The notes under the pieces: model-generated
The model's input: the letters and a program-made list of their open reading frames with translations, nothing else
Database searches by the model: none
Told to the model about the DNA's origin: nothing
Program-made: the position numbers and the translations under genes
In this document: piece after piece, positions 22,822 through 42,085 of the stretch
Position numbering within the stretch: position 1 is the first letter of the stretch
Layout of the letters: the number at the start of each line of letters is the position of its first letter
NCBI GenBank assembly: GCA_020850945.1
Contig: JADZDR010000092.1
Span: 1-44,681 of the forward strand
Direction: 5' to 3'
Origin: Acidimicrobiia bacterium
GTDB lineage: Bacteria; Actinomycetota; Acidimicrobiia; UBA2766
Length of the DNA stretch: 44,681 nucleotides

Positions 22822-24372
22822 ATGGGGGAGGACCGGAGCCGCCGCCATCAGGCCATCAGCCTCCAACCGGCGCATCCTGCGGCCGCCGGTGCAGGACTGG
22901 GCACGCTCACCGAGTCGGACGCTCCCTCTGTCGACGTGGACCCGGCGAGCGACGGTGACGGACACCCTGACCGGTACGGCGAAGGCTGGCGCCGCTACCG
23001 GGGGCCGGACACGGACCTCCACATGCCCAACGTCACGAACCTCCGAGACCACCTCGCCGCGCACGGCACCGCGGTCGTCCCCTTCGAGGTGCACACCGAC
23101 GACGGCGACGTGACCGGTGAGGCGCGCATCACGCGCCTGGGGCCGCTCACCTTCGACGTCGATCCTGCGCAGATCGGCGCCGGCGCGCCGGAGCAGACCG
23201 ACCATGCCCTCGAGGTCGTCCGTGCTCAGATCGAGGCGCGGCGCATTCGCCCCGCCCTCGAGGACTTCGACCGGGCTCGCCGGCGAGCCGCAGGCGCACT
23301 CGAGGAGAGCCGGGACGCGTCGATCGCCGCCGAGCTCTCCCCACCAGACCATCTGCCTGACGGGGCGAGCTGGGCGGAGGACCCCACGGCTTTCCAGGCC
23401 GCCTACCGTGGCGCCCAGGAACGCCGCCGCAACGGCGAGCAGGTCGTCCCCTACATGAGAGAGGACGCGACCGGGGGCCTCGGCGGGCGGGACGGCGGAC
23501 GCGCATTCGGTGTCGAGATCGAGTTCGACATCGAACCGGGCCGCGACCGGAGGGAAGCCCTCCGCGCGATCGGGCGCGACCTGCACGCTGCCGGCATCAC
23601 ACCCCAAGCCGACCAGACTCACTACCACGAGGGCCGGCGCGGCTACAGGAACTGGCGGTTCGAGAGGGACGCCACCGTCGACGGCGAGATCGTCTCACCG
23701 ATCATGTACGACACACCCGAGACGTGGCGCCAGCTCGCGACCGTCTGCGACATCGTGCGTCGCCACGGCGGCAGAGCCACGGCCCGCACGGGCCAGCACG
23801 TCCACGTGGGAGTGGGCGACTACGACCACACCGTCGAGAACCACAACCGCCTCCTCGACGTCTTCGACAGCTACCAGGATGTGATCTACCGGCTGGCACA
23901 GAACCCCGAGCGGCGCCGCCACCGTGGCACGCACTGGTGCACGCCGAACCGGGTGCCCGCTTCGGGCTACGCCAGCACGACACACGTGCAGAACAGGAAC
24001 TACGGGCATCACCTCGGCCTCAACTTCCAGTCCGTGAACGGCCGCCAGACCGACCACGTCGAGTACCGCATGTGGGACAGCAGCCTCGACCCGGGCGTGA
24101 TCCAGGCCCAGGTCAACTTGTCTCTGGGCATGACAGAAGCCGCCTTCCGCACCTCGGGGCAGCGCACTGGGCGCCCGGAGCGGATCGGCACGCACCGCAG
24201 TCGCAATCAGGATCTCCGCCAGCGCCCGGAAGGCCGGCGTCGCCTGCGCGGCGACGAATGGCGCGAGGACACGCGCTCCTTCCGCGAGCTCATGGACCTC
24301 GTCTTCCACCGCCAAGCCAACCGCGAACAGGCCACCGCCCAGTTCGCCCAGACCCGATGGACACGCCGATGA
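22822..24372 (+). CDS. Putative amidoligase
   Basis: 516 residues. The first 220 residues are a low-complexity, charged region. The catalytic part starts with FGVEIEFDIEPG (about 229-240), where the Glu residues are the metal-binding EIE motif of the COOH-NH2 amidoligase family (Amidoligase_2). GQHVHVGVGD (about 322-331), HHLGLNFQSVN (about 396-406) and HVEYRMWDSSLDP (about 413-425) follow in the family's order. Known: these glutamine-synthetase-fold enzymes are ATP-dependent ligases that join amines to carboxylates on peptides, wall fragments or small metabolites. Encoded in an element tail after ParB and a DUF4417 protein, it might modify envelope peptides or an element-specific metabolite. 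Substrate unknown. Confidence 0.75.
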   Translation: MGEDRSRRHQAISLQPAHPAAAGAGLGTLTESDAPSVDVDPASDGDGHPDRYGEGWRRYRGPDTDLHMPNVTNLRDHLAAHGTAVVPFEVHTDDGDVTGEARITRLGPLTFDVDPAQIGAGAPEQTDHALEVVRAQIEARRIRPALEDFDRARRRAAGALEESRDASIAAELSPPDHLPDGASWAEDPTAFQAAYRGAQERRRNGEQVVPYMREDATGGLGGRDGGRAFGVEIEFDIEPGRDRREALRAIGRDLHAAGITPQADQTHYHEGRRGYRNWRFERDATVDGEIVSPIMYDTPETWRQLATVCDIVRRHGGRATARTGQHVHVGVGDYDHTVENHNRLLDVFDSYQDVIYRLAQNPERRRHRGTHWCTPNRVPASGYASTTHVQNRNYGHHLGLNFQSVNGRQTDHVEYRMWDSSLDPGVIQAQVNLSLGMTEAAFRTSGQRTGRPERIGTHRSRNQDLRQRPEGRRRLRGDEWREDTRSFRELMDLVFHRQANREQATAQFAQTRWTRR

Positions 24373-25183: not shown

Positions 25184-27130
25184 TCACTCCCCGAGCCCCC
25201 CAACGTACGTACGCAGGTCGACGAGGTCCTCTGGGGGCACGACCTCGGCCGAGTTCCATAGGGCCACGACTTGGCGCTCCAAGGCGTCGCCAGACTTGAA
25301 GTCGAGCGCCGCCGCCGCCCGCCCGAGCGTCTGTTTGCCAAGGCATCGCCGAAACCAGTCGGGCGTGTCCCGATCGCTCATGTAGTCGGTCCATGCGGCC
25401 GCGAGCAGCTCTTCCCACATTTCGGCAAGGGTCGGATCGACGGCCGAGACGGACGCGGCGCGCCGACCGGCCCAATCGGCGTTCAGCTCGGCCATCGTGG
25501 CGTTGCCCAGTGCCGACACGGCGCTCTTCGGGAGGTCATGCTCTGCCGGGAATCTGGAGGCGGCGTTGTGTGCGACCCACAAGCCAGCGAAGTGGTCGCC
25601 CGATTCGCGAACGACAGTCGCGGCTTCGTCCCGATGGCGTCCCGCTCTTTGGAGCAGGATAGATATGGCATCGGGTTGCAGGTAGAGGTGGCGGTTCTCT
25701 ACCTCATGGCAGCCGAGTACGTGGACACCGGCATCAGATTGGAGCTGCATGCGCTCGTGGTCATTCTTGAAGTCGCGATCGATTACGCCGCCGACATGGA
25801 GCTGCTCGTCGGTCTCGTAGGCGAGTGTCCTGACGTCGCGCAACCGGCGAATCACCTCGTTGCAGCTACCACCCTCCAGAAACCGATTGACGTCCGGATT
25901 CCCACACACGGCGTAGAAGCGCTCGCGCTCGCGACTCTGACGGTCTCCTTCGATGTAGACGAAGCGAAGACGGCTAAGCGCGAACGCCGGAGACCCGACA
26001 GCTGCCGACAAGGCAGAAAGCACTGGGCGACCTTCCAGTCGAGTGGGCGCGGTGACCGTGCGTGACTCCGGATCGCGTTCGAAGACGAATGTCGAGGTCG
26101 GTCCAGCAACCTCAACGGCCTCAAGCGAGTGAGTGGCGATCCAAACCTGCCCGTCCTTCACGGTGTCTCGGAGGAAGGCGAGCCAGTTGCGAAGCAGGTC
26201 GGAGTTCAGATGCAGCTCGGGCTCATCGATGAGTAGGAGACCGCGCTGCAGTCGGAAGCGGTCGACTTGGCCGATCAGAAACGCGACCTCGCGCTCCCCA
26301 CCGCTGAGCCGAGAGAAGGCGAGTTCCAAGCCAGCGCTGTCGAAGAGTGGCGTCCGGCGCTGCCCGGACGACTCGACCCCAACGAAGTGGAGATGCGGCA
26401 GAACCTCATGCAGAGTGGCGCGGTAGCTGTCGAACGGATCAACGAACACAGGCTCAGGTTCGCCGGCGTCACGGGCTCGGCGGATGCCCGTCACGTGTTC
26501 GGTAGCGCACCTCTCCTCGACTCCCAAGAAGTACTTCATCCACTCCTCGTAGAGGGTGCGCGTCGGCCTGTACGCCCACTGGCGGGTGAACTCAGGGCTT
26601 TCCCATTCCTGCTGCCAGATCTCGCCGTAACGATGCGGTTCAATCTGCATCGGTGGGTACGCGCGATCCGCATCCAGATAGAGGTGCTGTGTCTCTTTGC
26701 GCTGGCGGAGAAGCTGGACAACGGTCTGTCCGAGCTGCTGTGACAGCCCCTCGTCGAGACCTGGAGCCGTGATCGTTTGCTGCGGGCCGCCATCGGGCGT
26801 ACGGCGGCTTACGAAGCTGAGTTCGCCATTCCAGGGCCCACCGGCTTCCTCGATCTGGGTCATGAGAGGCACGGGCAGTTCCAAGTCCGTTGATGGCACT
26901 TGAACGACTACCTCGATCTCGTGTGGTTCATCCAGAGGATTGCCTCGTGCGATCTCGACGCCCTGAGCGATCCCCAATTGGTGCGCTGCTGCCGACAGCA
27001 GCTCGAGAACGGCGCTCTTGCCAGTGCCATTTTCGCCCACGAGGCACACCAGCGAGGCGTCCGGGTCTACATGGAGGTCGACTTGACGCAGGTTCCGCCA
27101 GTCCTTGACTCTGAGTCGGGTCACCCTCAC
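25184..27130 (-). CDS. ABC-type ATPase fused to DUF4435 Toprim-like domain (PARIS/OLD-like)
   Basis: 648 residues from GTG 27130, overlapping the upstream gene's stop by four bases. The N-terminal ATPase half is an SMC/AAA15-type domain: FRN-like WRNLRQVDL, Walker A GENGTGKS (32-39), signature LSGGE (275-279), Walker B GLLLIDEPE (297-305) and a switch histidine in ATHS (334). The C-terminal half matches DUF4435: FVYIEGDRQ (E394), HVGGVIDRDF (D451, D453) and GCHEVEN (475-479), the acidic set of a Toprim-like nuclease. Known: in the PARIS defence system AriA is an AAA15 ATPase and AriB a DUF4435 Toprim nuclease, and fused forms exist; OLD nucleases share the plan. Inference: an anti-phage sensor-effector on one chain that senses phage counter-defence and kills or stalls the cell. 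A generic OLD-like nuclease is the alternative. Confidence 0.7.
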   Translation of the reverse strand: MRVTRLRVKDWRNLRQVDLHVDPDASLVCLVGENGTGKSAVLELLSAAAHQLGIAQGVEIARGNPLDEPHEIEVVVQVPSTDLELPVPLMTQIEEAGGPWNGELSFVSRRTPDGGPQQTITAPGLDEGLSQQLGQTVVQLLRQRKETQHLYLDADRAYPPMQIEPHRYGEIWQQEWESPEFTRQWAYRPTRTLYEEWMKYFLGVEERCATEHVTGIRRARDAGEPEPVFVDPFDSYRATLHEVLPHLHFVGVESSGQRRTPLFDSAGLELAFSRLSGGEREVAFLIGQVDRFRLQRGLLLIDEPELHLNSDLLRNWLAFLRDTVKDGQVWIATHSLEAVEVAGPTSTFVFERDPESRTVTAPTRLEGRPVLSALSAAVGSPAFALSRLRFVYIEGDRQSRERERFYAVCGNPDVNRFLEGGSCNEVIRRLRDVRTLAYETDEQLHVGGVIDRDFKNDHERMQLQSDAGVHVLGCHEVENRHLYLQPDAISILLQRAGRHRDEAATVVRESGDHFAGLWVAHNAASRFPAEHDLPKSAVSALGNATMAELNADWAGRRAASVSAVDPTLAEMWEELLAAAWTDYMSDRDTPDWFRRCLGKQTLGRAAAALDFKSGDALERQVVALWNSAEVVPPEDLVDLRTYVGGLGE

Positions 27131-28860
27131 TGATCACCCCCGTCACCCCGGCGGTTGCGACCTTTGCGTTTCTGCTTGGGGAACTTGGGGCCCGGTCCAT
27201 ACTCGACTGCGGGCCCGCGTTGCTGTTCAGAGGTCTTGACAAGGATCTGTCGCTGCTGAAGGTCACGCAGAAGGTCCCGCGCCCGGAAGACGTCAAGGTC
27301 GAGGAGATTCTGCAGCGTTCGGTTGCTGATCCGTCCGTACTCGTTCACGTGGGCGATCACCTTGCGGTCAGTGTCGTCGACACTTCGTCGGCGATAGGCA
27401 ACGGCGCCACCGAGGGTGCCCAGTGCAGATGATCGAAGCCGGTACTCCGACTTCTTCAGTCGTCGGGACTCTCGAGTCGCTTCCAGAATGCCCGGTTTGT
27501 CCGCGGCGAGTCGCGACAAGACGGATTCGGCCTCGGTTTCGCTCTTCTGGATGGTCCCGGCCAGCTCCTCGGCGGTAATCGTTCGCGAGGTCAACATGCT
27601 GAAGATGACGAGGAGTGTGTCAACGTCGTCGCGTTCGACGTCGTCCAGCCCGGCGATGAACTTGACGACCTGAGTACGTGGAGCTCCTCCCACGAAGGCG
27701 ACACGCGTTGTGTCGGTGGTCTGGGTGATCGAAGGAGTGTCGTGACCGGATCGGAGCAGCTCTCGGTACATGCGGTCGACCCCACGACCCGTCTCTTCGG
27801 ACAGGCGGAGCTTGCGAGCCGCCTGGAAGAGGCAAGGGTTCCGGGGTTTCGACGGATGAGTCAGAATGTTCTGCTCGGTGACTCCTGCTACGAGCGGTCC
27901 CGGTGACTCGACGACAAAGACGGTCGGTGAATGCTCGATCGTGACCGGAGCAGTCAGGCGGAACTCGCGGTGGAAGAGTGCATTGCCGATCACCTCACGC
28001 ACGGCCCCCTCTGGGAAGTCCGCCACTTCGATCTGGCTGCCATCCGGAAGGTTCAGCGATGTGACGTGGCGTCTCGCCCACGCGAGCTCGACAAGTTGGT
28101 CAAGAACCATCAAAAGGGGTCCGGCCAAGCGTTCAACGAGCGTGGCCTCCCCTCCTGGCGTCGGTCGATACTGGTAAAGCACCCAAGGCGTGGATCCGCT
28201 GCCGGCGCAGAACAAGACCTCACCCCCGCGCAGGAGGCGACCGCGTTCGTCAACAACGCCGAGTCCACGCAGGAGATCAGCATCGGACAGGTCGGCGAGC
28301 TTGCTGACCTCATCCGAGTATTGGCGGAGCCGACGTCGCGCCGCCGACAGAGCGTCCGGATCCACATCCCCCATTCCGACATCGGAGACCTCGGCGGACC
28401 AGTCCACACCACGACGCTCCTCTCGCAGGGCAGCCTGATCCTGAGGACTCATCGGGAGGCAGGCAGAGCCGACGCGGCGTTTGGCCCTGCCCTGCGGGTC
28501 GGCGTGGATTTCGAAACTGCGGGGAACCGTCAGGACGAGGACGCGTCGATCCTCGAACCTGAGCTCATCGGCCTGAACGAGAAGCGCAGGGGTTGTGAGC
28601 TCGTAGATGCGTCGCTGCACCTCTTGAGGGTCGAGCTCGGTCCCAATCAAGGCATCCGGCCCACTTACGTCGTCATTCACACCGACAACGACCGTGCCGC
28701 CGTCGGCGTTGGCAAAGCAGACGGCTGCGTCGGCGAGCAGCCTGGCGGTCTCGCGTGGCGACCGCGCGTCCTCCTTGAAGTCCAGCCTGACATCTTCGAG
28801 ATCCCGTGGACGTGCACCGTCGAAGATGTGGCGGAGCTGAGCTTCGATGTCCGATTCCAA
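27127..28860 (-). CDS. AlbA_2/Schlafen-like protein with HATPase_c_4 domain (copy 2)
   Basis: 577 residues from a TTG at 28860, with AGGT six bases before it. AlbA_2 (Schlafen-like) domain at about 20-135: RLDFKE (25-30) and ANADGGTVVVGV (50-61). The HATPase_c_4 domain follows: AVREVIGNALFHREF (286-300), ESPGPL (318-323), RNPCLF (340-345) and EETGRGVDRM (355-364). C-terminal winged-helix segments (about 400-550) end in a Lys/Arg-rich tail. Such proteins are often annotated as ATP-binding transcriptional regulators and recur in defence loci; some AlbA_2 proteins are nucleases. The gene overlaps the ATPase-DUF4435 gene by four bases, so the two are probably made together, perhaps as regulator or partner. 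A palindrome CCTGA-AAG-TCAGG lies just upstream (near 28884-28896), a possible autoregulatory operator. Confidence 0.75.
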   Translation of the reverse strand: MESDIEAQLRHIFDGARPRDLEDVRLDFKEDARSPRETARLLADAAVCFANADGGTVVVGVNDDVSGPDALIGTELDPQEVQRRIYELTTPALLVQADELRFEDRRVLVLTVPRSFEIHADPQGRAKRRVGSACLPMSPQDQAALREERRGVDWSAEVSDVGMGDVDPDALSAARRRLRQYSDEVSKLADLSDADLLRGLGVVDERGRLLRGGEVLFCAGSGSTPWVLYQYRPTPGGEATLVERLAGPLLMVLDQLVELAWARRHVTSLNLPDGSQIEVADFPEGAVREVIGNALFHREFRLTAPVTIEHSPTVFVVESPGPLVAGVTEQNILTHPSKPRNPCLFQAARKLRLSEETGRGVDRMYRELLRSGHDTPSITQTTDTTRVAFVGGAPRTQVVKFIAGLDDVERDDVDTLLVIFSMLTSRTITAEELAGTIQKSETEAESVLSRLAADKPGILEATRESRRLKKSEYRLRSSALGTLGGAVAYRRRSVDDTDRKVIAHVNEYGRISNRTLQNLLDLDVFRARDLLRDLQQRQILVKTSEQQRGPAVEYGPGPKFPKQKRKGRNRRGDGGDQ

Positions 28861-29483: not shown

Positions 29484-32400
29484 TCACCGCTCTTCGAACC
29501 CGTGGGTCTCGAACTTCAGGTTCGCGGCGTTCTCGGTCACCTTTCGGATCGTCGCCTCGTCGAAGCCGGCGTCGGCCTCGGCCTCGATCTCGATGTGCAC
29601 GCAGAGCCGGCTTGCTCCTGCCTTGGCGAGCTGGGCTGTGATGAACTCGGCGATGTCACCGGCCTTGGTGCCAAGGCGTAGCGGGTCGAGCTCGACTCGA
29701 CCGTGAAACCGCCGATATACGGCCGGCGCTTCCTCGTCCTCCCCGACGACGGTGGGCGTCTGGGCGGTCGCGCCGGCGCCTGCGGGCTCGGGTTCGACGG
29801 CGACGTCGGCGCTCTCGGCCTTCTGTTGGGCGAGGGCGAAGTCGGCTTTCACGAGTAGTCCTTCGAGGGTCACGGTGGCCTTGTGCGAACCTGCCTGAAG
29901 TCCCCGGTACCGTCCCGCTTCGTCGTCGCGGCTCTCCGCGTAGGCGAACGTGTCGATGTTCCACGAGGTCGACGCGAGCCCCGAGGCGATGCTGCGGCGC
30001 AGCACGTCGAAGTCGCAGAGCCGCTGCAGATACGGGTACTGGGCGAAGTCTTCCCAGAGCTGCCGGACCGAGACATCGTCGTTCCGCCAGAGAGGAACCC
30101 TGTCGAGGTCGAGCCGTAGGTTCGTCGCGCCATAGTCGGTGACTAGGAGGCCGTCGCCCGTGAGCTTGCGGAAGGCGCGCTCGGGGATCGGCTCCGAACC
30201 GCGGATGCGGATCGTCTCGATCTCGATCCCGCCGGTGGGGTCCGGCTGCACGGGAACCAGGAGCCACTGGTACGTGTCGGGCAGACGCTGGCTGACGGTG
30301 TCCCTGGCCTGTTCGAGCTTGGCCTCGGTCTGCTTGATGCCGAACTGGTCGAGGTTGAGGGTTTCCCGGTCGGAGGAGATGCTCGCCCAGGCCAGCTGCT
30401 GGCGGACGGCCTGTTCGAGCTCCTCGAGGCGGGAGGCATCGGCAGCGGCGAAGACGAGCATGTTCCGGAAGCGACGCGGGCTGCTTCCCCGCTCGTCGAG
30501 CAGCTCCCTCGCTCTCGTGATCGCTGCGCTGTCGGCGGTCTTCGACGAGTGAGGCTTCTCGGGACCCAGCACTACGAGTCGCACTTGTTGCTCGTCGGGG
30601 ATGTCGCCGCTCGTCCCGCGATCGATCTGCAGGGCCGGAAAGCCGGCTTTGCCTTTCGTCGCGTCGAGCCGGCTGAGGATCTCCGTGTACACATGCTCGT
30701 CGGTGTCGAACTGCTCTGCTCTGTCTCGGGCTAGTTGCGCGACGCTCGGCTGGGTCGCGAACCAGTACCGGCCGGATTCGTCGACGTAGATGTGTGTGGC
30801 GCTGTCGGTCAGGCGGCGCAGGGCATCCCCGTATGTCGCGGGGCTCTCACCGGGGAGTGCCGAGCCGAGCTTGATGCGCCGGTCGTTGATGCCACGGTTC
30901 TCCGACTTCAGTGTCGGGGCCGACCCGAGGAAGATCGTCCGTGCGACCCGTCGGCACGCCTGGTACTTGCCGAGGTTCGGGTATTCGGCATCGAGGCGTC
31001 GCGGTGTCGAGTTCGGACCGTCGACGTCGGTCTCGATCACGGGCGGCCAGTTCTCTTCCAGGTAGTTGTTCAGCTCCTCCTGGACAGTGGGGGCGGCGAT
31101 CGGCACGGACGCGGGCATGATGAGAGGCGACTGGTCACCGGACTCCCACAACTGATGGATCACACCCGCCATAAGGCGCAGCACGCCCCGCGTGCGCTGG
31201 AAGCGCTCCAGCGACGACCAATCGCCGTAGAGGCGGTCGAACAGTTCCGGATGGATCGGGTATGCGGCCTTGATGCGGTCCTCGTACGAAGCTTCCTTCG
31301 TCCCTGCCGGGAACTCACCCTCGTTCGCCTTGTAGAACTCGACGAAGGCCCGTGCCGTCGCATCCCGGCGTGTGTGCGCGTCCGTGCCTGCAAGGTCCTT
31401 GAAGAGGCGACGTCGCACGATCTCGAACGACTCCTCCGCCGTCGCCGGCTGCCACGGGGACTCGATGCGACCGATGACGTTCTTGAGCCGCTTCAGCGCC
31501 TGACGGCCGCCCTCGCCGCCGATCTCGATCTCGGAGCCGATCGTCTCCCCCGCGGGCCCGCTCGGTCCGGCCGAGGCCGGTATGGAGACGACGAGCAGGG
31601 TACGCGGCGCCGCCCGCGCCGCTTCAGTGAGCGACTGGGCGAAGGTGAAGTGGGAATCGAACGTGCCACCAGGCAGATCGTCCTTTCCCCACAGCATCCT
31701 CGCATACGCGACCCATTCGTCGATGAGGATCAACGTCGGTCCGTCTCCCAACAGCGACCGGATCGCCGCTGCACCCGGGCTCGTGCCTGTCCTGTCTGCC
31801 TCCGCGATCGAGTCGTACGCCGCCTGCCCGCCCACTTGCCAGGCGAGCTCACCCCACAGAGTGTGGATCTCCGGTCCGCCGTCGGGCCGGTGGGTTTGCG
31901 CAGGGGACAGCCACGTGCCGACGAGCACGGCACGCCGCACATCCTCGGCGGGAAGATCAACCGCCGCGTCGGCGAGTAAGGCCTCCACGCCGGCGAGGCC
32001 GGTCGCCTCGGCACCGGAGAACATGTGATACAGGGCCAAGAGGCTGTGCGTCTTACCGCCCCCGAAGTTCGTCTGAAGCTCGATGATCGGCGCCCCGCCC
32101 ATGCCGTCGAGCCGAGCGGCCGCACCCCGCAGGAGCCGGCGCAGTCCGTCCGTCATGTAAGTGCGGCGGAAGAACTCCCGAGGATCGCGGTATTCGCTCG
32201 ACCCCTCCCCACGATGCACCTGCGCCAGATCGGCTGCGAACTCAGCCTGGCTGTACCGGCCCGTCGCGACGTCGTCGTGGGGTGCGATCACCTCCCGCCA
32301 GGGCACCGCGCCGCCGGCGGGCTTGCCCTCGACAAGGAGATCGCCGACCGCCTTCGCCGTCTTCTTCGTCTGCTCCTCGTACCTGACCCGCATGAGATCG

Positions 32401-32822
32401 TGCTTGCGGCGAGCGATCTCGGCGGCCTCCCCGGCCGACACCGCCGTGAGAAGTCGCTCCATGGTGTCGAACGCGCGGTACGTGTCGTCTGTGGAGAACG
32501 GGTCCTGGTGCGCCCACGCATTGCGCACAGTGAGTAGCTCGTTCGCATAGCTCCGGTGCTCCTTGGCGAGAACGTCGCGGAACACCCCGTCCCAGAGCAC
32601 CTGCATCGCCCTGAGCTGGAACTGCACATCCGCCGGGGAATACTCGTACGGCGTCTTGCCCGGCGGTGTCATGGCATGCACCGCGAGATCGAACCAGTCG
32701 TCCGGATTTCCCTGACCCTGCCGCTTCACCCACGCACGCAACTCAGCCTCGACGAAGGGGGCCAGCCCATCCGACAGCGCCTCGAGTGCGGAGCCGATCC
32801 GTTCACGATTCGTCTTGGCCAT
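29484..32822 (-). CDS. DUF499 P-loop ATPase with N-terminal Swt1-type HEPN domain
   Basis: 1112 residues from ATG 32822, preceded by GAGAGGGG. Residues 5-135 form an all-alpha HEPN domain of the Swt1 type: RIGSALEALSDGLAPFVEAEL, then RSYANELLTVRNAWAHQDPFS, with the catalytic-type Rx4H at R100-H105, and YRAFDTMERLLTAV. The DUF499 ATPase follows: a Walker A-like NFGGGKTH (252-259) and Walker B LILIDEW (364-370). The middle and C-terminus (about 640-1110) have winged-helix-like segments and a beta-rich end. Known: DUF499 proteins are paired with DUF1156 methylases in defence islands, and HEPN Rx4-6H domains are commonly metal-independent RNases. Inference: the ATPase couples foreign-DNA sensing to RNA cleavage. 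An RBS-masking hairpin precedes the gene, as would suit a toxic product. Confidence 0.82.
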   Translation of the reverse strand: MAKTNRERIGSALEALSDGLAPFVEAELRAWVKRQGQGNPDDWFDLAVHAMTPPGKTPYEYSPADVQFQLRAMQVLWDGVFRDVLAKEHRSYANELLTVRNAWAHQDPFSTDDTYRAFDTMERLLTAVSAGEAAEIARRKHDLMRVRYEEQTKKTAKAVGDLLVEGKPAGGAVPWREVIAPHDDVATGRYSQAEFAADLAQVHRGEGSSEYRDPREFFRRTYMTDGLRRLLRGAAARLDGMGGAPIIELQTNFGGGKTHSLLALYHMFSGAEATGLAGVEALLADAAVDLPAEDVRRAVLVGTWLSPAQTHRPDGGPEIHTLWGELAWQVGGQAAYDSIAEADRTGTSPGAAAIRSLLGDGPTLILIDEWVAYARMLWGKDDLPGGTFDSHFTFAQSLTEAARAAPRTLLVVSIPASAGPSGPAGETIGSEIEIGGEGGRQALKRLKNVIGRIESPWQPATAEESFEIVRRRLFKDLAGTDAHTRRDATARAFVEFYKANEGEFPAGTKEASYEDRIKAAYPIHPELFDRLYGDWSSLERFQRTRGVLRLMAGVIHQLWESGDQSPLIMPASVPIAAPTVQEELNNYLEENWPPVIETDVDGPNSTPRRLDAEYPNLGKYQACRRVARTIFLGSAPTLKSENRGINDRRIKLGSALPGESPATYGDALRRLTDSATHIYVDESGRYWFATQPSVAQLARDRAEQFDTDEHVYTEILSRLDATKGKAGFPALQIDRGTSGDIPDEQQVRLVVLGPEKPHSSKTADSAAITRARELLDERGSSPRRFRNMLVFAAADASRLEELEQAVRQQLAWASISSDRETLNLDQFGIKQTEAKLEQARDTVSQRLPDTYQWLLVPVQPDPTGGIEIETIRIRGSEPIPERAFRKLTGDGLLVTDYGATNLRLDLDRVPLWRNDDVSVRQLWEDFAQYPYLQRLCDFDVLRRSIASGLASTSWNIDTFAYAESRDDEAGRYRGLQAGSHKATVTLEGLLVKADFALAQQKAESADVAVEPEPAGAGATAQTPTVVGEDEEAPAVYRRFHGRVELDPLRLGTKAGDIAEFITAQLAKAGASRLCVHIEIEAEADAGFDEATIRKVTENAANLKFETHGFEER

Positions 32823-32892: not shown

Positions 32893-35658
32893 TCACAGCA
32901 TGCCCTCCTGCGCGAGACGACAAATCTCGGGCCAGGCGATAACGAGTGCGTTATACGCTTGCGCTTCCTCTGAACGTCCCTTGCGGTCGCAGATCACGTA
33001 GAGCCGATAGGCGAGCTCCTTGGCTACCTCGCCCAAACCGCCGATGCGGGCGGCGAGGTCAGACGCCGCCCGCTCCCCTCCGACTTCGAGCGCGCGTATC
33101 AGGTGTTGCGTGACCTCCCATATGGGCAGGCGATCGTCGGTTCCCGGATCCCAAACCTCGGGGAGCTCATTCCGGTGAAGCAGACGCACGCTCCCCTTGC
33201 CGGACCGGACGATCCCGGCACGCGCCAAGCCGTCGACGGCCGTGTTCTTGGCCCGCGCGAGGTTGTCGGCGTCGCCGAAGGAGCCCTCTGCCAGACCATG
33301 CTGCTCGAACCAGGCGATCGCCCAACGCGTGTCCGAGTCGAACTCACTCTCTTGCTCGGCCAGGATCTCGTCCAACACCTGGTTGATGAGAACCAGCGCT
33401 GTGCGTACGGGCATGCGCGAGCCGTCGGGCTCCAGCACCCTGGCATACCTGGAGAAGACGGCCATCCCCGGACCTATCGAAGCCTGTGCGAGATCAACCG
33501 GAGCAACACTGCCCTCCTGAAGCCTTCTTAAGGCACCCGGCAACTCCGATTTCAACTCCGCCAGGAAGTCCCGGCGAGTGGCGATGGGTGCGTCCTCTGG
33601 ACGCAGACGGCACGCAAGGACGATCGAAGACGCCAGAGCGTTCGTACCGCTTGCCGTAGGTCGGTTGGACAGCTCACTGCGCATCGGCCACGTCGCCGTG
33701 ACACAGAAGCCCGCGGCCAGCAAACCTTCTAGCATCGTGTCCCAACCCGTCGACGCCACGCTCCCGTTGGCCCCGTCGGTCTCGGCCTGCTTGAACGCAT
33801 AGAAGAGCGTGAGCGGGAACGACGGGTCCTGCACCTCGCGCATGGACTCGAACGCCTTGCGCAGACCCGACTCGAAATGCTGCTCGGCCTCCCTCTTCCC
33901 CCCGTGGCGGTAGGGACTCGCGATCAGCTCCTGAGCCTTGGGAGTCAGGACGGTGCTGAAGAGGTCCGGGTACACGTCCTTGAGCGTGCGTCTGACCCAC
34001 ACGTAGAAGAAGTCCGACAGATCGGCGTACCCGATGTTGTCGTAGTAGGGCGGATCCGTCGCCACGACGGCTCTTGGTCCCGCCACGGCGGACGCATCCA
34101 GTTGGTTTACAACGCCCATTTGAGTGGCAGGCACACGTTCGACGGCCTTCGCGACCCAGTCAACACAGAAGGCCCAGTTCCCTGAGGAGTCGCTGAAGGG
34201 ATTGCTTTCGGCGAAATCCCACACCATCGGTATCGCCTGTCTGGCAAAGGTGTTCCGTGCCCCCTCCATCTTGACGCTGGAATCCCAACTGCAGATGGAC
34301 GAGTGGCGATCAGCGAGCTTGTCGACTGCCAGGCCGAGGTAGGTCACCACAGCATCGGCATACGCCAGAGCACCCATGCCATCCACGACGAGAGGAGTGG
34401 TGTCGTCCGTCATTCCGGCGGCGACGGCGTCCTTGTGGACCTGCTCGCGGACCTCGTGGACGAGATCGCTGAACGTCGTAAGCGCCACGAGCTGCCGATC
34501 GGTGAACAGGTCGCCCCACCCAGTCAGGCCGTATCCGTAGCACGTGCCGCCCGTCAGTCGTGCGGGAACGTCACCGTCTGGCCGCCAGCTGGGTTCGGCC
34601 AAGGCGGCGGCTTCCGCCTGCGAGCTGGTCGCGGGCAGGTAGACACGCTGCCTCACGCCCTCGGCGACGACCGCAACCAGTTGAGCGTCCATACGCCCAT
34701 GCATGCCTTCGCTCTTCACGTGGGCATCGTCGGCCGTCTGCCCGCATGCCAGACATCGGAAGTTCGCACCCCTGCCGATCTTGGGAGGAGGCGGTGGGTC
34801 TCCCGCGCCTGTCCGGGTCTTGAACCTCACGGTCATCGACTCATCGTCCACATGTGGTTCGATCCATGTCCTCCTGTCCTTCTTCTTGGAGAGCCAGAAC
34901 GTCGAGATGAGCGGCATCGTGGCACCGCACGCCGGGTTGGGACAGGTGACCGTCCTCGCCCAGATCCAGGCGACGACTGTTGCCTCGCCGCCGCCTTGGT
35001 CTTCGGGAAGCTCCACCTTGGGATAGAGGTGTCCGATCCGCTCCCATGCCTTGTCGCGCATCCATTGGCCGTACCATCTAACGTCCTCGGCGAGGCCCCG
35101 GGTCCCAGTCCATGTGGCGCCCAGCGCGCGCCCCGGATGCACAGCAGCAGCACCAGCAAAGCGCGGAGGGACCTCGATGAGCGCCTTCGTGATCAGGACG
35201 GGGACAGGGTTGAGGTCCGACGCGTGCGCTTCCAAGCCGAGGCGCTGCGCCTCCAGCGGTATCGACCCGCCGCCGCAGAAGGGGTCGAGGATCGCCGGCG
35301 GTTCCCCGTCACAGGAGGCGAGGATCTCCGCACGCGCATCTGCCAGTACAAAGGGATCGTTCGAGCTCTCCCAGGGAACAAGTCGCTCGATGATCTCGAA
35401 GAGCCGCTGACGTTCCTTCGCCTGCGCCTCCTCGTCCGGGAAGCGATCCGGATGCGAAGACGGGTCGTCGACGAGCTGGGCGAACAGAACAGCCCGGCAG
35501 GCCGCGAGCGGACGCCGTGCCCACCACAGATGCAGCGTCGAGGGGTGTCCGTGCCGGATTGACTTCTCCCGCGCAGCCTCGCGATTGATCGCCTCGAGCG
35601 GCAGCGCCACCTCGATCAGCTTCTTCCTTGCCGAAGCTTCAGGGGTTATGGAGCTCAC
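32893..35658 (-). CDS. DUF1156 adenine-specific DNA methyltransferase
   Basis: 921 residues from GTG 35658; the RBS is weak (AAAAGA in an AT-rich spacer of 33 bases). The N-terminal DUF1156 segment (10-60) has KSIRHGHPSTLHLWWARRP. SAM motif I is ILDPFCGGGSIPLEA (123-137, DPFCGGG at 125-131) and the catalytic motif IV is TDPPYYD (534-540). Between them lies a four-cysteine zinc ribbon (C239, C244, C302, C305). The C-terminal 200 residues are helical. Known: these are large adenine-N6 methylases found beside DUF499 ATPases and helicases in defence islands. Likely role: marking host DNA as self. The recognition sequence is unknown, and no separate restriction endonuclease gene is present apart from the nuclease-like domain on the helicase. 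Confidence 0.85.
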   Translation of the reverse strand: MSSITPEASARKKLIEVALPLEAINREAAREKSIRHGHPSTLHLWWARRPLAACRAVLFAQLVDDPSSHPDRFPDEEAQAKERQRLFEIIERLVPWESSNDPFVLADARAEILASCDGEPPAILDPFCGGGSIPLEAQRLGLEAHASDLNPVPVLITKALIEVPPRFAGAAAVHPGRALGATWTGTRGLAEDVRWYGQWMRDKAWERIGHLYPKVELPEDQGGGEATVVAWIWARTVTCPNPACGATMPLISTFWLSKKKDRRTWIEPHVDDESMTVRFKTRTGAGDPPPPPKIGRGANFRCLACGQTADDAHVKSEGMHGRMDAQLVAVVAEGVRQRVYLPATSSQAEAAALAEPSWRPDGDVPARLTGGTCYGYGLTGWGDLFTDRQLVALTTFSDLVHEVREQVHKDAVAAGMTDDTTPLVVDGMGALAYADAVVTYLGLAVDKLADRHSSICSWDSSVKMEGARNTFARQAIPMVWDFAESNPFSDSSGNWAFCVDWVAKAVERVPATQMGVVNQLDASAVAGPRAVVATDPPYYDNIGYADLSDFFYVWVRRTLKDVYPDLFSTVLTPKAQELIASPYRHGGKREAEQHFESGLRKAFESMREVQDPSFPLTLFYAFKQAETDGANGSVASTGWDTMLEGLLAAGFCVTATWPMRSELSNRPTASGTNALASSIVLACRLRPEDAPIATRRDFLAELKSELPGALRRLQEGSVAPVDLAQASIGPGMAVFSRYARVLEPDGSRMPVRTALVLINQVLDEILAEQESEFDSDTRWAIAWFEQHGLAEGSFGDADNLARAKNTAVDGLARAGIVRSGKGSVRLLHRNELPEVWDPGTDDRLPIWEVTQHLIRALEVGGERAASDLAARIGGLGEVAKELAYRLYVICDRKGRSEEAQAYNALVIAWPEICRLAQEGML

Positions 35659-35691: not shown

Positions 35692-37383
35692 TCATAGCTT
35701 TGGGCTTCGTTCATAACGGGCACCTCGCTTTTCCCCCACCAGGCCCAGATCACCCCGCTCGGTGAGCCGTTTCAGGACGCGGCGCGCCTGTTCGGGCTTC
35801 ACTCGACACAACTCAGCGGCTTGACCGCGTGTGATCGAACCGTACGCTTCGACATACTGAAGGATCATCTGTTCCTGTTGGATGGCGTCGAAGCCGCGTC
35901 CTCGGACGTAGCCTGATCCTTCGCCGATAGCTTCGTACAATGCCGGTGCGAGCATCCAGACGCGCCCCTTCCTTTCACCGCGCGCTTCCAGAAGGCCGGC
36001 GTCGACCATTCGGTTCAGGACCCCCCTCACCGAACCCGTGTCCTCCTGCAGCAGCGTCGCTGCTTCGGCCGTGGTGATGCGCCTTTCGTGCGCGAGCTCG
36101 TTCAAGACGAGTAGCTGCTCAAATCCCATTTGGCGTCCGGCTTCGGACTCCTCGGTCAGAAACCGTACGAGGGCCAGGTTCGCGGGACCTCCCGGGATGA
36201 CGACCGTGACATGCTCGCGGGTCGAGCGGTGATAGTCGGGGAGAGCCCGGCCGTATCGGGCTTGCCCGCCGAAGATCAGGTTGACACCTCGACCCGTGCG
36301 TTCGACGAGGCCAGCGCGCTTGAACGCGTCGGCGAGCAAGGGGTTGCGCGGCGTCGGGGGCGCTACGAGCAGGTTGCCGGGATCGAGGCCGGGCATGAAC
36401 CCTCCCGGGTTGGAGATCTCCACACGGTCCGCATACCACTGCACGTGAACCGATCCGAGCTTCGTGAAGTCGCGGTGCACGAGGGCGTTCATCGTCGCCT
36501 CCCGTAGCGACGCTTCTGGGTAGGCCGGGACGGCGACCCGCAGCAGCCCCACTTGTAGTTCATCCTGGGTATTCCGTGCTCGAAACCGGCTCAGGAGTTC
36601 GTCAGCGACTCGGAGGAGCGGCCAGCAGAAGAAGTCGTTCACTTCTGCAGTGAGATCGGGGCGCAACGCCTGGAAGGCCACCTCGTGTGTCGGGATGTGC
36701 TTCGCAAGCGCTGCCTCCGAGCCAAAGAGGAGCAACGCGCCAGCACGTATTGCAGGGTCGCGTCGTGTACCGCTGACACATCCCAATGCCACGGCGATGT
36801 CGAAGTCGGACAACTCGAGTAGGGAGGGATCACCACGCCCTTCGGTCTCCCGTACCAATCGGCGAATGCGGTCGAATTCGAGCGGATCGAGATCTGTGAA
36901 CTCGGCCTCGGGGACGTCGAGGGCGGCGAAGTCCCGTGCCCCCCGGTCGATCTCTGCAGCCAACAGCTCAGCGGAGTGCATCGGGGCGCACTCCGGACGC
37001 CCATCACTCCCGATCGCACGCCGGACATACTTGCCGTCTGTCGTTCCGACGAGCCGGCCGCCAGCCGGCACCGTTACGGCAACGACGTCAACGTCATCGA
37101 CGTCGACAACTGTGACCTCCGTCCGCACGGGTGGCTGCGTTCGAGCCGCGATCAGCGCTGCGAGGCGGCTTGGGTCCGTGCGCTCACCGTGCCGGCGTCT
37201 GGCGCCGGTGATCTCACCGTCGTCCTCGATTCCGACAAGAATCGTGCCGCCTTCGGCGTTGGCGAGACACACGACGGCATGGACAAGCTCACCATCAGAC
37301 AGCGCAGCGCTGGTCTCTCCCTTGAGTTCGACCGTGAACTGCTCACCTGATGCCGCCAAGCGCTTGACTTCCCGGGCATCCAT
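35692..37383 (-). CDS. AlbA_2/Schlafen-like protein with HATPase_c_4 domain (copy 1)
   Basis: 563 residues from ATG 37383, chosen because AGGGAG precedes it and it starts 28 bases after the helicase stop; the frame is open 27 codons further up but would overlap that gene. AlbA_2 at about 10-125: FTVELKGE (16-23) and ANAEGGTILVGIEDDGEI (41-58). HATPase_c_4 at about 290-370: SLREATMNALVHRDF (292-306), NPGGF (325-329), PRNPLLADAF (345-354) and RTGRGVNLIF (362-371). Two winged-helix modules follow (about 415-560): ITTAEAATLLQEDTGSVRGVL and ITRGQAAELCRVKPEQARRVL. It is embedded between the helicase and methylase genes, so it is part of this defence operon. It could be its transcriptional switch or a nucleic-acid-cleaving component. 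It is a distant homologue of the gene at 27127-28860. Confidence 0.8.
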   Translation of the reverse strand: MDAREVKRLAASGEQFTVELKGETSAALSDGELVHAVVCLANAEGGTILVGIEDDGEITGARRRHGERTDPSRLAALIAARTQPPVRTEVTVVDVDDVDVVAVTVPAGGRLVGTTDGKYVRRAIGSDGRPECAPMHSAELLAAEIDRGARDFAALDVPEAEFTDLDPLEFDRIRRLVRETEGRGDPSLLELSDFDIAVALGCVSGTRRDPAIRAGALLLFGSEAALAKHIPTHEVAFQALRPDLTAEVNDFFCWPLLRVADELLSRFRARNTQDELQVGLLRVAVPAYPEASLREATMNALVHRDFTKLGSVHVQWYADRVEISNPGGFMPGLDPGNLLVAPPTPRNPLLADAFKRAGLVERTGRGVNLIFGGQARYGRALPDYHRSTREHVTVVIPGGPANLALVRFLTEESEAGRQMGFEQLLVLNELAHERRITTAEAATLLQEDTGSVRGVLNRMVDAGLLEARGERKGRVWMLAPALYEAIGEGSGYVRGRGFDAIQQEQMILQYVEAYGSITRGQAAELCRVKPEQARRVLKRLTERGDLGLVGEKRGARYERSPKL

Positions 37384-37411
37384 CAGCAGAACTCCCTGGC
37401 GGCATCGGCCA

Positions 37412-40400
37412 TCACATGGGCTCCCGTCCGCGTGCCCAGTATGTCTGCCAGGGGCAGTCGACACGTGTGATGTCGAAGGCGACGTTCTCGTTTCCGAAGG
37501 GTTGGGTGAGGTACCGGAGTGTGGTCGTGTCGTCTGGGGCGACCTCGACGAGGGCGAGGCGGTAGTCGTCGCCGCTGTTGAAAGCGTGCAGGAGCTCGTT
37601 CTTTGTGATGGTGAAGCTAGGTGCGCCTGTCACGCGTCCTTTCACCTCGATGACGACGAGACCGCCGGACTTGGGATCGCGACTGCTGATGTCGAACCCG
37701 GGGTGGTTGTGCGGCTTCTCCTCGGGGTCTCGGCCGAGATGGCGCTCGGCGGCGAGGACGGCGTCAACGGCGAGCCGCTCGATCCTCTGCGTTTCCTTCG
37801 CTCTCGCGGCGATCTCGTCTGCGGGAAGAGGTGATGGCTCCAGGAGCGAGGCGGAAACGACAAGTGCGGCCCCGACGACCACGGGCGCCTGTGGGTGGAG
37901 CTGTCGTTCCTCTTCGAGCTCGAGGGTGCGCCGCTGTAGTCGCGCCTGCAGGTCGTCGGCGCGTTGGCGAGCCTTGCCGGAGTTGAGCCGGGGCTTCTTG
38001 CCGGCAAGCTCCTGCTCTTTGAGTTCCGCCGCCCTGTGGTCCCAGTACGTGATCTCCCGGGTGAGTCTGTCCGTGACGGCTTTCAGTGTCTTGTCGACAC
38101 GGTCGATCGTGCGTCTTCGGACTTCCCCGAGATGCTGCGGCACGACGTCGGAGACCGCGAAGTCCAAACCGATGCGCTCGGGTTCAGCAGACCTGAGCCA
38201 GTCGAGATCGAGATCGCCCAACCGCGGTCGCTCCTCGTCGGTCGGCGGCCGATAGTCGAGGAACGGGGCGTATCCGGCATCTCGCGTCTTGCCGTCTTGC
38301 GTGACTTCGACGAACTGGTAGCGCCGCGAGACGACCCGGCGGTTGCCGTGCGCGTCGGTGCGGGCGTCCGTGATCGAGTGCTCGAGATAGACGAGCAGTC
38401 TCGGTGTCGGGTCGACGTCGGGTCTGTCGTCGACGAGCACCGCGCCATGACGCAGCAGCGAGCCGTACCGCTCCAGAAGAACGTCTACGGTCACGTCGAG
38501 GAGTGGGTGGCCGGGGCAGAGGAACTCGGCCTGAACGTGTCCCGTCGGGGCAAGGTGCTCCTTCTCGAAGGCGACGCGCTCGTAGCGGCGCAGCAGGGGC
38601 GCGCCTACGCCGATCTCACGGTCACGGCTTCTCAGGTCGGCAGGCACGTAGGTGATCTCGAAACGACCCGGTTCACGCTCGACGATCCGCCCGCCGAGTT
38701 GCCTGAAGGCCTTGAGGAAGAACGCCCGAACGTAGTGCGGCTGAAGCTTCCTGGCGGCGGCCTCGGCCATGGCCACGCGGACTTCCTCGACATCCGTCGG
38801 TGTCATGACATCGGTGATGACGGCCCTCTCGTCGAGGACCTCCTTCAGGCCCTCGCCCGCGTTGTGATCGACAATGAGCTCGAGTTGCTTCTTCGTGACG
38901 GGGTCGTCGCTGTAGCGGATTGCCTTGATGAGCAGGTGGCGCAGGGACTCATCCGCGAAGGTTTCCCCGAGGACGTCGAAGACCTGGTCACCGAGTGCTT
39001 GACGCATGGAGTCGAGCTTCTCGAAGAGACGATGGAACACGTGTCCCTCGCGGGTCTCGTGTGCCACGAGGTTCCAGAGGTGACACACCTCGTTCTGGCC
39101 GATGCGGTGGATGCGTCCGAAGCGCTGCTCGATCCTGTTCGGGTTCCAGGGGAGGTCGTAGTTGACCATGAGGTGTGCCCGTTGCAGGTTCACGCCCTCG
39201 CCCGCTGCATCGGTTGCTACGAGGATGGACGTGTCCTTGTCGACTGTGAAGGCCCCTTGGATCTTGCGGCGCTCCTCCCGCTTCGTCCCGCCGTGGATCA
39301 TTACGACGGCGTCGTCTCGGCCGATCAGGTTCCTGAGCCGGCCGGCGAGATAGTGGAGCGTGTCCCTGTGCTCGGTGAAGATGATGAGCTTGCGGCGGTT
39401 GCCGTGGGCGTCGAACATCTCCTGCTGCTCCTGGAGCAGACCGGCGAGCTCCTCCCACTTGCGGTCGCGGCCGCTCGCCCGCACCTTGGCGGCCAGGGAC
39501 TCGAGCTCGGTGAGGGCGGAGATCTCGGCTTCGAGCTCGGCGATCGTCTGAGCCGCTGACGCTTCGTCGATGAGCGCGTCGCCGATCTCCTCGGCTTCGG
39601 CATCGGGGACGTCCTCGAGGTCGGTCTCGAAGTCCTCCTCGTCGAGCCCTGCCGCGGCAGCAGGCAAGGCGGTCTCGAGGGCTGCGTCCTTGGCCCGCTT
39701 TGCGAGCTTCTCCTCGCGGAGGCGGTCCTCGAGTCTCTTCCGGCGCCGTTTCAGAGACTGATAGATGGCCTCGGGACTCGACGCGAGCCGCCGTTGCAGC
39801 AGCGTCAGGGCGAAACCTACGACGCTGCGGCGGCTGCCCTGGCCGTCGGCGAGGCGGTCGGCACGGTTCATCTCCTCCCGGACGTACTCCGTCACGCGCT
39901 CGTACAGGATCGCCTCTTCGTCGCTCAGCGTGTACGTGACGGAGTAGGCCCGCCTCTCCGGGAACAGGCGAGTACCGTCGAAGCGGAGCAGGTTCTCCTT
40001 CACGAGACGGCGCATGATCCCCATCGTGTCGACGGTGTGGACCCCGTCGGAAGCCCTCGGCCGGCCCTCGAACCGGTCCGAGTCGATGAGCGACAGGAAG
40101 AGCTGGAAGTCCTCGTCCTTGCCCGAGTGTGGGGTCGCCGTCATGAGGAGGAGATGGCGTGTCAGCCCGCCGAGGAGCCTGCCGAGCTTGAACCGCTTCG
40201 TCTCGGTGACCTCGATGCCGTACCCGTGGGCTGCCATCTTGTGCGCCTCGTCGACGACGACGAGGTCGAAGTCGCACTGGGCGAGCTTGGCCTGGGCCTC
40301 GTCGTTGCGTGACAGGGCGTCGAGACGGGCGATCAGGCGAGGCTTCTCCAAGAACGGGTTCCCGGTGCGGGACGCCTCGAACGTCTCTCTGGTAGCGATG

Positions 40401-40963
40401 TCGAAGTGGATGCCGAACTTGTCCCACATCTCGTCCTGCCACTGCTCGACGAGACTTCCCGGCGCGACGATGAGGCAGCGCTGCACGTCACCCCTGACCA
40501 TGAGCTCCTTCAGGAGGAGCCCGGCCATGATCGTCTTGCCCGCTCCCGGGTCGTCGGCGAGGAGGTAGCGGAGCGGATGGTGCGGCAGCATCTCCACGTA
40601 CACCGCCTCGATCTGGTGCGGCAGCGGCTCCAGGTTCGACGTCGTCACCGCCAGGTACGGGTCGAACAGGTAGGCGAGATTGATGCGACGTGCCTCGCTC
40701 ACGAGCATGAACAGCGTGCCGTCGGCATCGAACGCCCACGACGGGCCCGACTCCTCCAGCGACAGGGCGGGTTCGCTGTCCCGGTAGAGGAGGGTGTGAT
40801 CGGAGCGACCCGAGTCGTCCTTGTAATGGAGAGTGATCGCCGCCTGCCCATGCCACTCCACCTGCACGACCGTCACCGGCCCAGAAGGCACGATCCCCGA
40901 CACCCGGGCGCCCGGCGTCAGATACTCCAGCCGCACCGCTGTGATTGTGTCCTCTGACTCCAC
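37412..40963 (-). CDS. SNF2/SF2 helicase with C-terminal DUF3883 nuclease-like domain
   Basis: 1183 residues from GTG 40963, selected because the family-typical opening (TAVRLEYLTPGARVSGI) begins there and GGAGGG is just upstream; the frame is open further but reads as non-coding. Helicase motifs: Walker A ADDPGAGKT (136-144), DEAH at 238-241, TATPHSGK soon after, and motif VI QRFGRIHRIGQ ending at 623. A charged coiled-coil insertion lies at about 400-460. The C-terminal DUF3883 has GFDISSRD (D1091) and VVIEVKGR (E1106, K1108), a PD-(D/E)xK-like triad. Such helicases head DISARM-like and DUF1156/DUF499 defence loci. Likely role: translocation on unmethylated incoming DNA, with DUF3883 cutting or binding. 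First gene of the leftward operon. Confidence 0.87.
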   Translation of the reverse strand: MESEDTITAVRLEYLTPGARVSGIVPSGPVTVVQVEWHGQAAITLHYKDDSGRSDHTLLYRDSEPALSLEESGPSWAFDADGTLFMLVSEARRINLAYLFDPYLAVTTSNLEPLPHQIEAVYVEMLPHHPLRYLLADDPGAGKTIMAGLLLKELMVRGDVQRCLIVAPGSLVEQWQDEMWDKFGIHFDIATRETFEASRTGNPFLEKPRLIARLDALSRNDEAQAKLAQCDFDLVVVDEAHKMAAHGYGIEVTETKRFKLGRLLGGLTRHLLLMTATPHSGKDEDFQLFLSLIDSDRFEGRPRASDGVHTVDTMGIMRRLVKENLLRFDGTRLFPERRAYSVTYTLSDEEAILYERVTEYVREEMNRADRLADGQGSRRSVVGFALTLLQRRLASSPEAIYQSLKRRRKRLEDRLREEKLAKRAKDAALETALPAAAAGLDEEDFETDLEDVPDAEAEEIGDALIDEASAAQTIAELEAEISALTELESLAAKVRASGRDRKWEELAGLLQEQQEMFDAHGNRRKLIIFTEHRDTLHYLAGRLRNLIGRDDAVVMIHGGTKREERRKIQGAFTVDKDTSILVATDAAGEGVNLQRAHLMVNYDLPWNPNRIEQRFGRIHRIGQNEVCHLWNLVAHETREGHVFHRLFEKLDSMRQALGDQVFDVLGETFADESLRHLLIKAIRYSDDPVTKKQLELIVDHNAGEGLKEVLDERAVITDVMTPTDVEEVRVAMAEAAARKLQPHYVRAFFLKAFRQLGGRIVEREPGRFEITYVPADLRSRDREIGVGAPLLRRYERVAFEKEHLAPTGHVQAEFLCPGHPLLDVTVDVLLERYGSLLRHGAVLVDDRPDVDPTPRLLVYLEHSITDARTDAHGNRRVVSRRYQFVEVTQDGKTRDAGYAPFLDYRPPTDEERPRLGDLDLDWLRSAEPERIGLDFAVSDVVPQHLGEVRRRTIDRVDKTLKAVTDRLTREITYWDHRAAELKEQELAGKKPRLNSGKARQRADDLQARLQRRTLELEEERQLHPQAPVVVGAALVVSASLLEPSPLPADEIAARAKETQRIERLAVDAVLAAERHLGRDPEEKPHNHPGFDISSRDPKSGGLVVIEVKGRVTGAPSFTITKNELLHAFNSGDDYRLALVEVAPDDTTTLRYLTQPFGNENVAFDITRVDCPWQTYWARGREPM

Positions 40964-41128
40964 GGCCCTCCGCAGATGCCCGCCGTCGCATCCTCCCTGC
41001 GTCTTGCCGAATCTACCCGCCGCCTGGGACAGTCGCCCCGCCCGTACACACGTCGGATGTGCCCGGGGGTCGCGGGTTGGCGTCCCCAGATGTCGGGGTC
41101 GGTATCTGCACCTCATGTAGCGTGCTCG
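40964..41128. promoter_or_regulatory. Divergent promoter region of the defence operon
   Basis: These 165 bases separate the helicase gene (leftward) from a rightward gene and must carry the main promoter of the 16-kb defence operon. A CCCC-agatgtc-GGGG inverted repeat is at about 41084-41098, and a Gly-tract palindrome (GCCCGGGGG) at 41061. No -35/-10 pair is convincing on either strand. Confidence 0.3.
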
Positions 41129-42085
41129 GTGTACGGCGGTGTCATCGCCGTCGATGACGAACACCGAGTGACGAGCGTGGAAGAAATAGCGGAGCTGCAA
41201 GCTGTCCTCGACGGTTTCCAGCGCAACCTCGACAGCCAATCGCGGGAGTATGGCTGGGGTCCGACAGCGGATTCGCGCGCCTACCGAGAAGGTTGGGACG
41301 GTGACGAGCCACTGCAAGCGATTGTCAGGATGTCCTACGAGCTGGCCGGTATCTCGTTGCTGTCGGCCACACAGCACCTGGCGGCGATCTCACGGATCCT
41401 TGCCACGAGCCAAGATGACCAACTCCTCTATCCCATCTACACGCTCGCTCGCGGCGCGATCGAGGCGGCAGCATCGGCGTATTGGCTGCTTGCTCCCGAC
41501 GAACCAGGTGAACGCGCGCGCCGAGGACTTGCTGCGCGTCTGAAGGGCCTTGACCATCAGATGCAGGCCGTGGGCCACCTCAAGGACCACCCAGATGACC
41601 CCACCCAGGCCGCGACTGCACACCTCGCCGACCGAAGGACCCAGGTCGCCCAGGCAGCAGCGGCGATCGGCGAGGAACTGCATCCCTCCGCGTTCGCACT
41701 GAAAGGCAGAGCCGGATACCCGCGACTGCGAGACCTCGTCACCGCGCTCTACCGGGACTACGAGCAGTTCTTTCCGAACATTGGGCCTCTGCTCTATGCC
41801 TTCTTCTCTGAACGAGCGCATGGGTATCCGTCCGCGCTCGGCGGGATGCTTGTCCCTGTGACTGACGCCGACGAGTTCGGGACCCAACTCGCTCAAGCGG
41901 CCGCAGACATCGGAGAGGTCGCCTTCGCGTGCAACGTCGCTGCAACGGGAGTCGCCGTGGCGGCCGAGAGACGAGTCGAGCTGTTCGGCTGGAACTTGAC
42001 GCTGTGGCGACAATGGCGCCAACACGCGAACAAGAAGCTCTTGGAGGCTTCCGGTTTCTTCGACGGTCATGCCAGGGACGGGTAG
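41129..42085 (+). CDS. Hypothetical alpha-helical protein beside the defence operon
   Basis: About 318 residues. The start is uncertain: GTG 41129 is listed because TAGCGT lies five bases before it, which would suit a leaderless message, but GTG 41168 is as likely; neither has a Shine-Dalgarno. The protein is helical and soluble, with ISLLSATQHLAAISRIL, LYPIYTLARGAIEAAASAYWLL and a following ERARRGLAARL. The pattern L-x-R-[AG]-x-[IL]-E-[AT]-A-x-x-x-x-W-L-L recurs in uncharacterised HEPN-like proteins of bacterial accessory regions, often next to defence genes. No catalytic motif can be assigned. It is transcribed away from the helicase, so it could be an accessory toxin or immunity factor, or unrelated. 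Confidence 0.6.
   Translation: MYGGVIAVDDEHRVTSVEEIAELQAVLDGFQRNLDSQSREYGWGPTADSRAYREGWDGDEPLQAIVRMSYELAGISLLSATQHLAAISRILATSQDDQLLYPIYTLARGAIEAAASAYWLLAPDEPGERARRGLAARLKGLDHQMQAVGHLKDHPDDPTQAATAHLADRRTQVAQAAAAIGEELHPSAFALKGRAGYPRLRDLVTALYRDYEQFFPNIGPLLYAFFSERAHGYPSALGGMLVPVTDADEFGTQLAQAAADIGEVAFACNVAATGVAVAAERRVELFGWNLTLWRQWRQHANKKLLEASGFFDGHARDG

Follow-up and report, generated by a model that had tools for sequence, protein, structure and literature searches.

An intact HEPN-DUF499 fusion in an Hma (Type-1 BREX-related) locus of an Acidimicrobiia bacterium

The fusion of a Swt1/Abi2-type HEPN domain to a DUF499 AAA+ ATPase was described as the Ava_2192 family (Anantharaman et al. 2013, PMC3710099), which occurs in restriction-modification operons with an SNF2 helicase-DUF3883 protein and whose HEPN was predicted to be active; the HEPN of eukaryotic Swt1 was described in the same study as inactive. 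The operon was named Hma (HmaABC) by PADLOC (Payne et al. 2021, PMC8565338). A 2026 survey of Type-1 BR systems (PMC12839542) recorded the HEPN-DUF499 fusion in 1370 of 2446 taxa, about 44% being without HEPN, and counted at least 1017 taxa with a linked accessory protein of the Schlafen-HATPase-wHTH type. In that survey the main effector is taken to be the HmaA nuclease, which the HEPN is proposed to back up as a last-resort suicide RNase. As summarized there, the helicase-fused nuclease confers antiphage defence (the survey's ref. 112); the experimental HmaA paper (PMC11232893) is likewise considered here through the survey's account. BrxC, a homologue of HmaC, forms dimers and DNA-promoted multimers (PMC13326643). 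No RNase test of a HEPN-DUF499 protein was found in the literature surveyed.

The window, i.e., the whole stretch of 44,681 nucleotides that was analysed, carries an Hma, alias Type-1 BREX-related, system in which HmaC is ordinary and intact. The genes hmaB and hmaA and a Schlafen-type gene lie upstream of hmaC on the same strand:

29484-32822, reverse strand: hmaC, HEPN plus DUF499 AAA+ ATPase, 1112 aa, ATG start; PADLOC HmaC.
32436-32789, reverse strand: Swt1-like HEPN domain, aa 12-129 of HmaC, with R100 and H105; Pfam PF18731.
32893-35658, reverse strand: hmaB, DUF1156 plus N6-adenine methyltransferase, 921 aa; PADLOC HmaB E 0, 1205 bits; DUF1156 E 1.8e-32.
35692-37464, reverse strand: Schlafen/AlbA_2 plus HATPase_c_4 plus winged-helix accessory gene; Pfam SLFN_AlbA_2 E 1.4e-15, HATPase_c_4 E 1.2e-17.
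37412-41377, reverse strand: hmaA, SNF2-type helicase plus NOV_C/DUF3883-type PD-(D/E)xK nuclease; PADLOC HmaA E 0, 1542.6 bits, from aa 148; NOV_C E 7.9e-17.

All three Hma proteins match the PADLOC models at E 8e-298 or below, and the operon order is that of the relatives; the locus differs from Hma as modelled by PADLOC in the Schlafen-type gene between hmaA and hmaB and in the HEPN, since the PADLOC HmaC model starts after this domain. No essential difference was found from Type-1 BR (PMC12839542), with which the locus shares an N-terminal HEPN on a DUF499 ATPase, a DUF1156 N6-MTase, an SNF2 helicase with an active C-terminal REase and the Schlafen-HATPase-wHTH auxiliary gene described there. 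The Ava_2192 family (PMC3710099) has the same fusion, a HEPN predicted to be active and the same operon context with SNF2-DUF3883, and is set apart only by its hosts and by the Schlafen gene added in the window. The fusion is real and intact, but every one of its features has already been described.

The sequence-only reading had placed a Swt1-type HEPN at the N terminus of HmaC, within an interval (32400-32822) that corresponds to aa 1-141 of the protein and thus to the HEPN domain. This assignment is borne out by Pfam, in which HEPN_Swt1 (PF18731) matches aa 12-129 at 102.9 bits (E 1.6e-29; cut-off 27.5 bits) over profile positions 2-115 of 115, i.e., at full length. The domain searched alone gave E 1.4e-30, and a search of the whole 3.9-Mb genome returned it at the same place (E 2.0e-30) as the sole domain of this kind. 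The HEPN region was modelled (19 sequences) as an all-helical bundle with a mean pLDDT of 91.9, mostly above 90, in which R100 lies near the end of helix 87-104 and H105 follows immediately after the helix. The top structural match of the model in the PDB is the yeast Swt1 C-terminal domain (4pqz), at a level below significance (E 0.7, probability 0.47, TM 0.34/0.43); this modelled fold appears to be in line with the Pfam assignment but does not prove it. Sequence searches of the PDB found no relative with the single HmaC protein, and none with the profiles, which returned coiled-coil-like off-target matches only.

The intact Rx4H motif that had been claimed for the domain is present as R100-N-A-W-A-H105. 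Shuffling the first 182 aa of HmaC at constant composition yields a bare Rx4-6H string in 72% of cases; such a string is common by chance, so that the motif is meaningful only through its conservation. In the HmaC alignment, whose rows come from many phyla, R100, A104 and H105 are each invariant (98/98) and W103 (96/98) and N101 (95/98) nearly so; of these 98 rows, 17 were preselected for 'WAH', 80 came from a scan of genome contigs and were not so chosen but rank closest to a query that itself contains a HEPN, and a few are duplicated, the same contig having been found twice. A chance origin of the R100/H105 motif was rejected on the basis of this conservation among HmaC relatives. HmaC also contains a second string of the Rx5H type (R176/H182), which was rejected as a catalytic pair because its histidine and the PH-x-D signature recur in DUF499 proteins that have no HEPN.

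The same residues bear on the reading that grants the HEPN little catalysis and sees in it chiefly a module for RNA binding or dimerisation in HmaC assembly, as proposed for the HEPN of eukaryotic Swt1. The eukaryotic domain, which belongs to the same Pfam family and provides the top, though weak, structural match, is described as catalytically inactive (PMC3710099), and one further relative from the phylum retains the domain with its arginine lost (L022, HmaC N terminus on the reverse strand, motif TANAAHH), while its histidine and all other parts of HmaC are kept. However, the HEPN of the window keeps both R and H, near-total invariance falls on exactly the catalytic-motif residues (R, N, W, A and H), and the bacterial Ava_2192 branch is predicted to be active (PMC3710099). 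We therefore regard a mainly non-catalytic role as unlikely, although it deserves some consideration. L022 offers a natural test case for a non-catalytic HEPN. Together with L013, the one close relative in which HEPN was not detected, it implies that some systems can do without HEPN catalysis.

The P-loop ATPase had been read as following the HEPN directly, a description that needs correction: between the two are found a low-confidence linker (roughly aa 157-167) and the N-terminal signature of DUF499, W175-R-x4-PH-x-DV, and Walker A is not reached until aa 253-258. Both Walker A (F253-GGGKTH259) and Walker B (L366-IDE369) are invariant or nearly so in the HmaC alignment. DUF499 (PF04465) was matched by Pfam on aa 315-704 (E 9.5e-25), and PADLOC HmaC on aa 174-1111 (E 8.3e-298). 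The latter model, PDLC00662, comprises 941 positions and omits the HEPN, so that annotation based on such profiles hides the HEPN-DUF499 fusion. In the full-length HmaC model (mean pLDDT 82.8, pTM 0.54) the HEPN and the ATPase are split by the low-confidence linker, and the C-terminal part, where an RRM-like domain would be expected in the DUF499 ATPase of an Hma / Type-1 BR system, is of low confidence from about aa 1008. Compared with the PDB, the full-length model gave generic AAA+ matches only, with E 0.01 or worse and the top match lying in an ORC-Cdc6-MCM complex.

An HmaC/DUF499 match at E 1e-30 or better was found in 35 of 396 genomes of the phylum. Among the loci read from this phylum sample, the HEPN was found in 20 of 21 close HmaC proteins with an ATPase identity of about 48% or more (the window's protein counted), and in none of nine more distant DUF499 proteins (ATPase identity 30-34%). 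Pairwise distances of HEPN and ATPase are correlated across 95 sequences (r = 0.76), as would be expected for joint inheritance. A single-sequence scan of genome contigs with the window's HmaC returned no relatives, and an alignment-based scan returned at least 583. The best 80 of these come from many bacterial phyla and include one archaeal record, and the hmaA-hmaB-hmaC order recurs among their loci; where the locus exceeded 15 kb (n = 42), hmaB was nearby in 40 and hmaA in 34. In seven other loci (L047, L053, L060, L062, L081, L098 and L104) hmaA and hmaB are separated by a Schlafen homologue, as they are by the Schlafen gene of the window, whose ORF as listed overlaps hmaA. Translation of this Schlafen ORF probably begins at the Met at aa 28, and hmaA probably starts near aa 139-148 of its own ORF.

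The methylase motifs DPFCGGG and DPPY of HmaB are intact and conserved, and the HmaA nuclease residues D1229, E1244 and K1246 are each identical in 47 of 47 homologues. A candidate RNA-cleaving arm on the ATPase of a helicase/methylase set, as the sequence-only reading proposed, is supported by the domain match, the motif conservation and the model. Its further step, a replacement of DNA restriction by RNA shut-off, claims more than the evidence supports: as the DNA-cutting and methylation arms are intact, any RNA cleavage is most probably a backup added to them. The locus encodes a restriction-like Hma (Type-1 BR) system of the common HEPN-HmaC variant, and we consider it reasonably probable that the HEPN serves there as a backup, suicide-type RNA-cutting arm beside HmaA. 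In the course of events that we infer, from trigger and dimerisation to RNase activity, RNA target and the order of the effectors, HmaB would methylate host DNA as a self mark, HmaC would sense or assemble on unmodified foreign DNA via its ATPase and winged-helix regions, and HmaA, a putative translocating helicase-nuclease, would cut the foreign DNA. HmaC would multimerise, driven by ATP or DNA, and unite the HEPNs in composite dimer active sites (R100, H105), which would cut RNA if the infection were not contained. Assembly of HmaC is plausible because the homologous BrxC forms dimers and DNA-promoted multimers.

The roles could be reversed, the HEPN being the main effector, in line with the sequence-only reading: DNA sensing by HmaC would lead to RNA cleavage and growth arrest, and HmaA would mostly translocate or aid sensing. 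R100 and H105 are as strictly conserved as the ATPase motifs, and the domain is retained in nearly all close HmaC proteins. Nevertheless, the HmaA nuclease residues are invariant too, the helicase-fused nuclease is credited with antiphage defence in the survey's account, and the roughly 44% of Type-1 BR taxa without HEPN indicate that the system works without it (PMC12839542); we hold this arrangement to be rather improbable. A related proposal, in which HEPN RNA cleavage triggered by HmaC on unmodified DNA would be the decisive protection and the Schlafen RNase-type gene would add a second RNA-directed arm, seems more doubtful still. Fusion to a DNA-bound ATPase would localise the HEPN, and it might then cut phage or host transcripts only near restricted DNA, as part of ordinary restriction that the host survives. 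Bulk RNA cleavage, however, is the usual outcome for defence HEPNs, and such local cutting is very improbable. A backup role beside HmaA remains the preferred reading.

Further genes of the window lie on the far side of hmaC. Two genes on the reverse strand, at 25184-27130 and 27127-28860 with a 4-nt overlap, make up another defence-like pair, composed of a PARIS-type, AriAB-like ATPase (PADLOC AriAB E 7.7e-27; also matching DUF4435) and a second Schlafen/AlbA-HATPase gene. A putative amidoligase is encoded at 22822-24372 on the forward strand (PF12224, E 9.3e-13). The forward-strand region 573-22815 carries TcpC, an AAA_10 VirB4-like ATPase, a weak match to a T4SS coupling protein, ParB_N, LysM and CAP; with these conjugation and partition-like genes, the defence island adjoins a mobile-element module. 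No terminal overlap was found in the 44681-base contig.

The present locus exemplifies, in clean and intact form, a widespread system with an RNase arm that was predicted as early as 2013; it is a useful test case rather than a discovery. The practical point is that the PADLOC annotation of HmaC conceals the RNase-type arm. If the HEPN does cut RNA, DNA restriction and abortive RNA cleavage would be joined in one machine.
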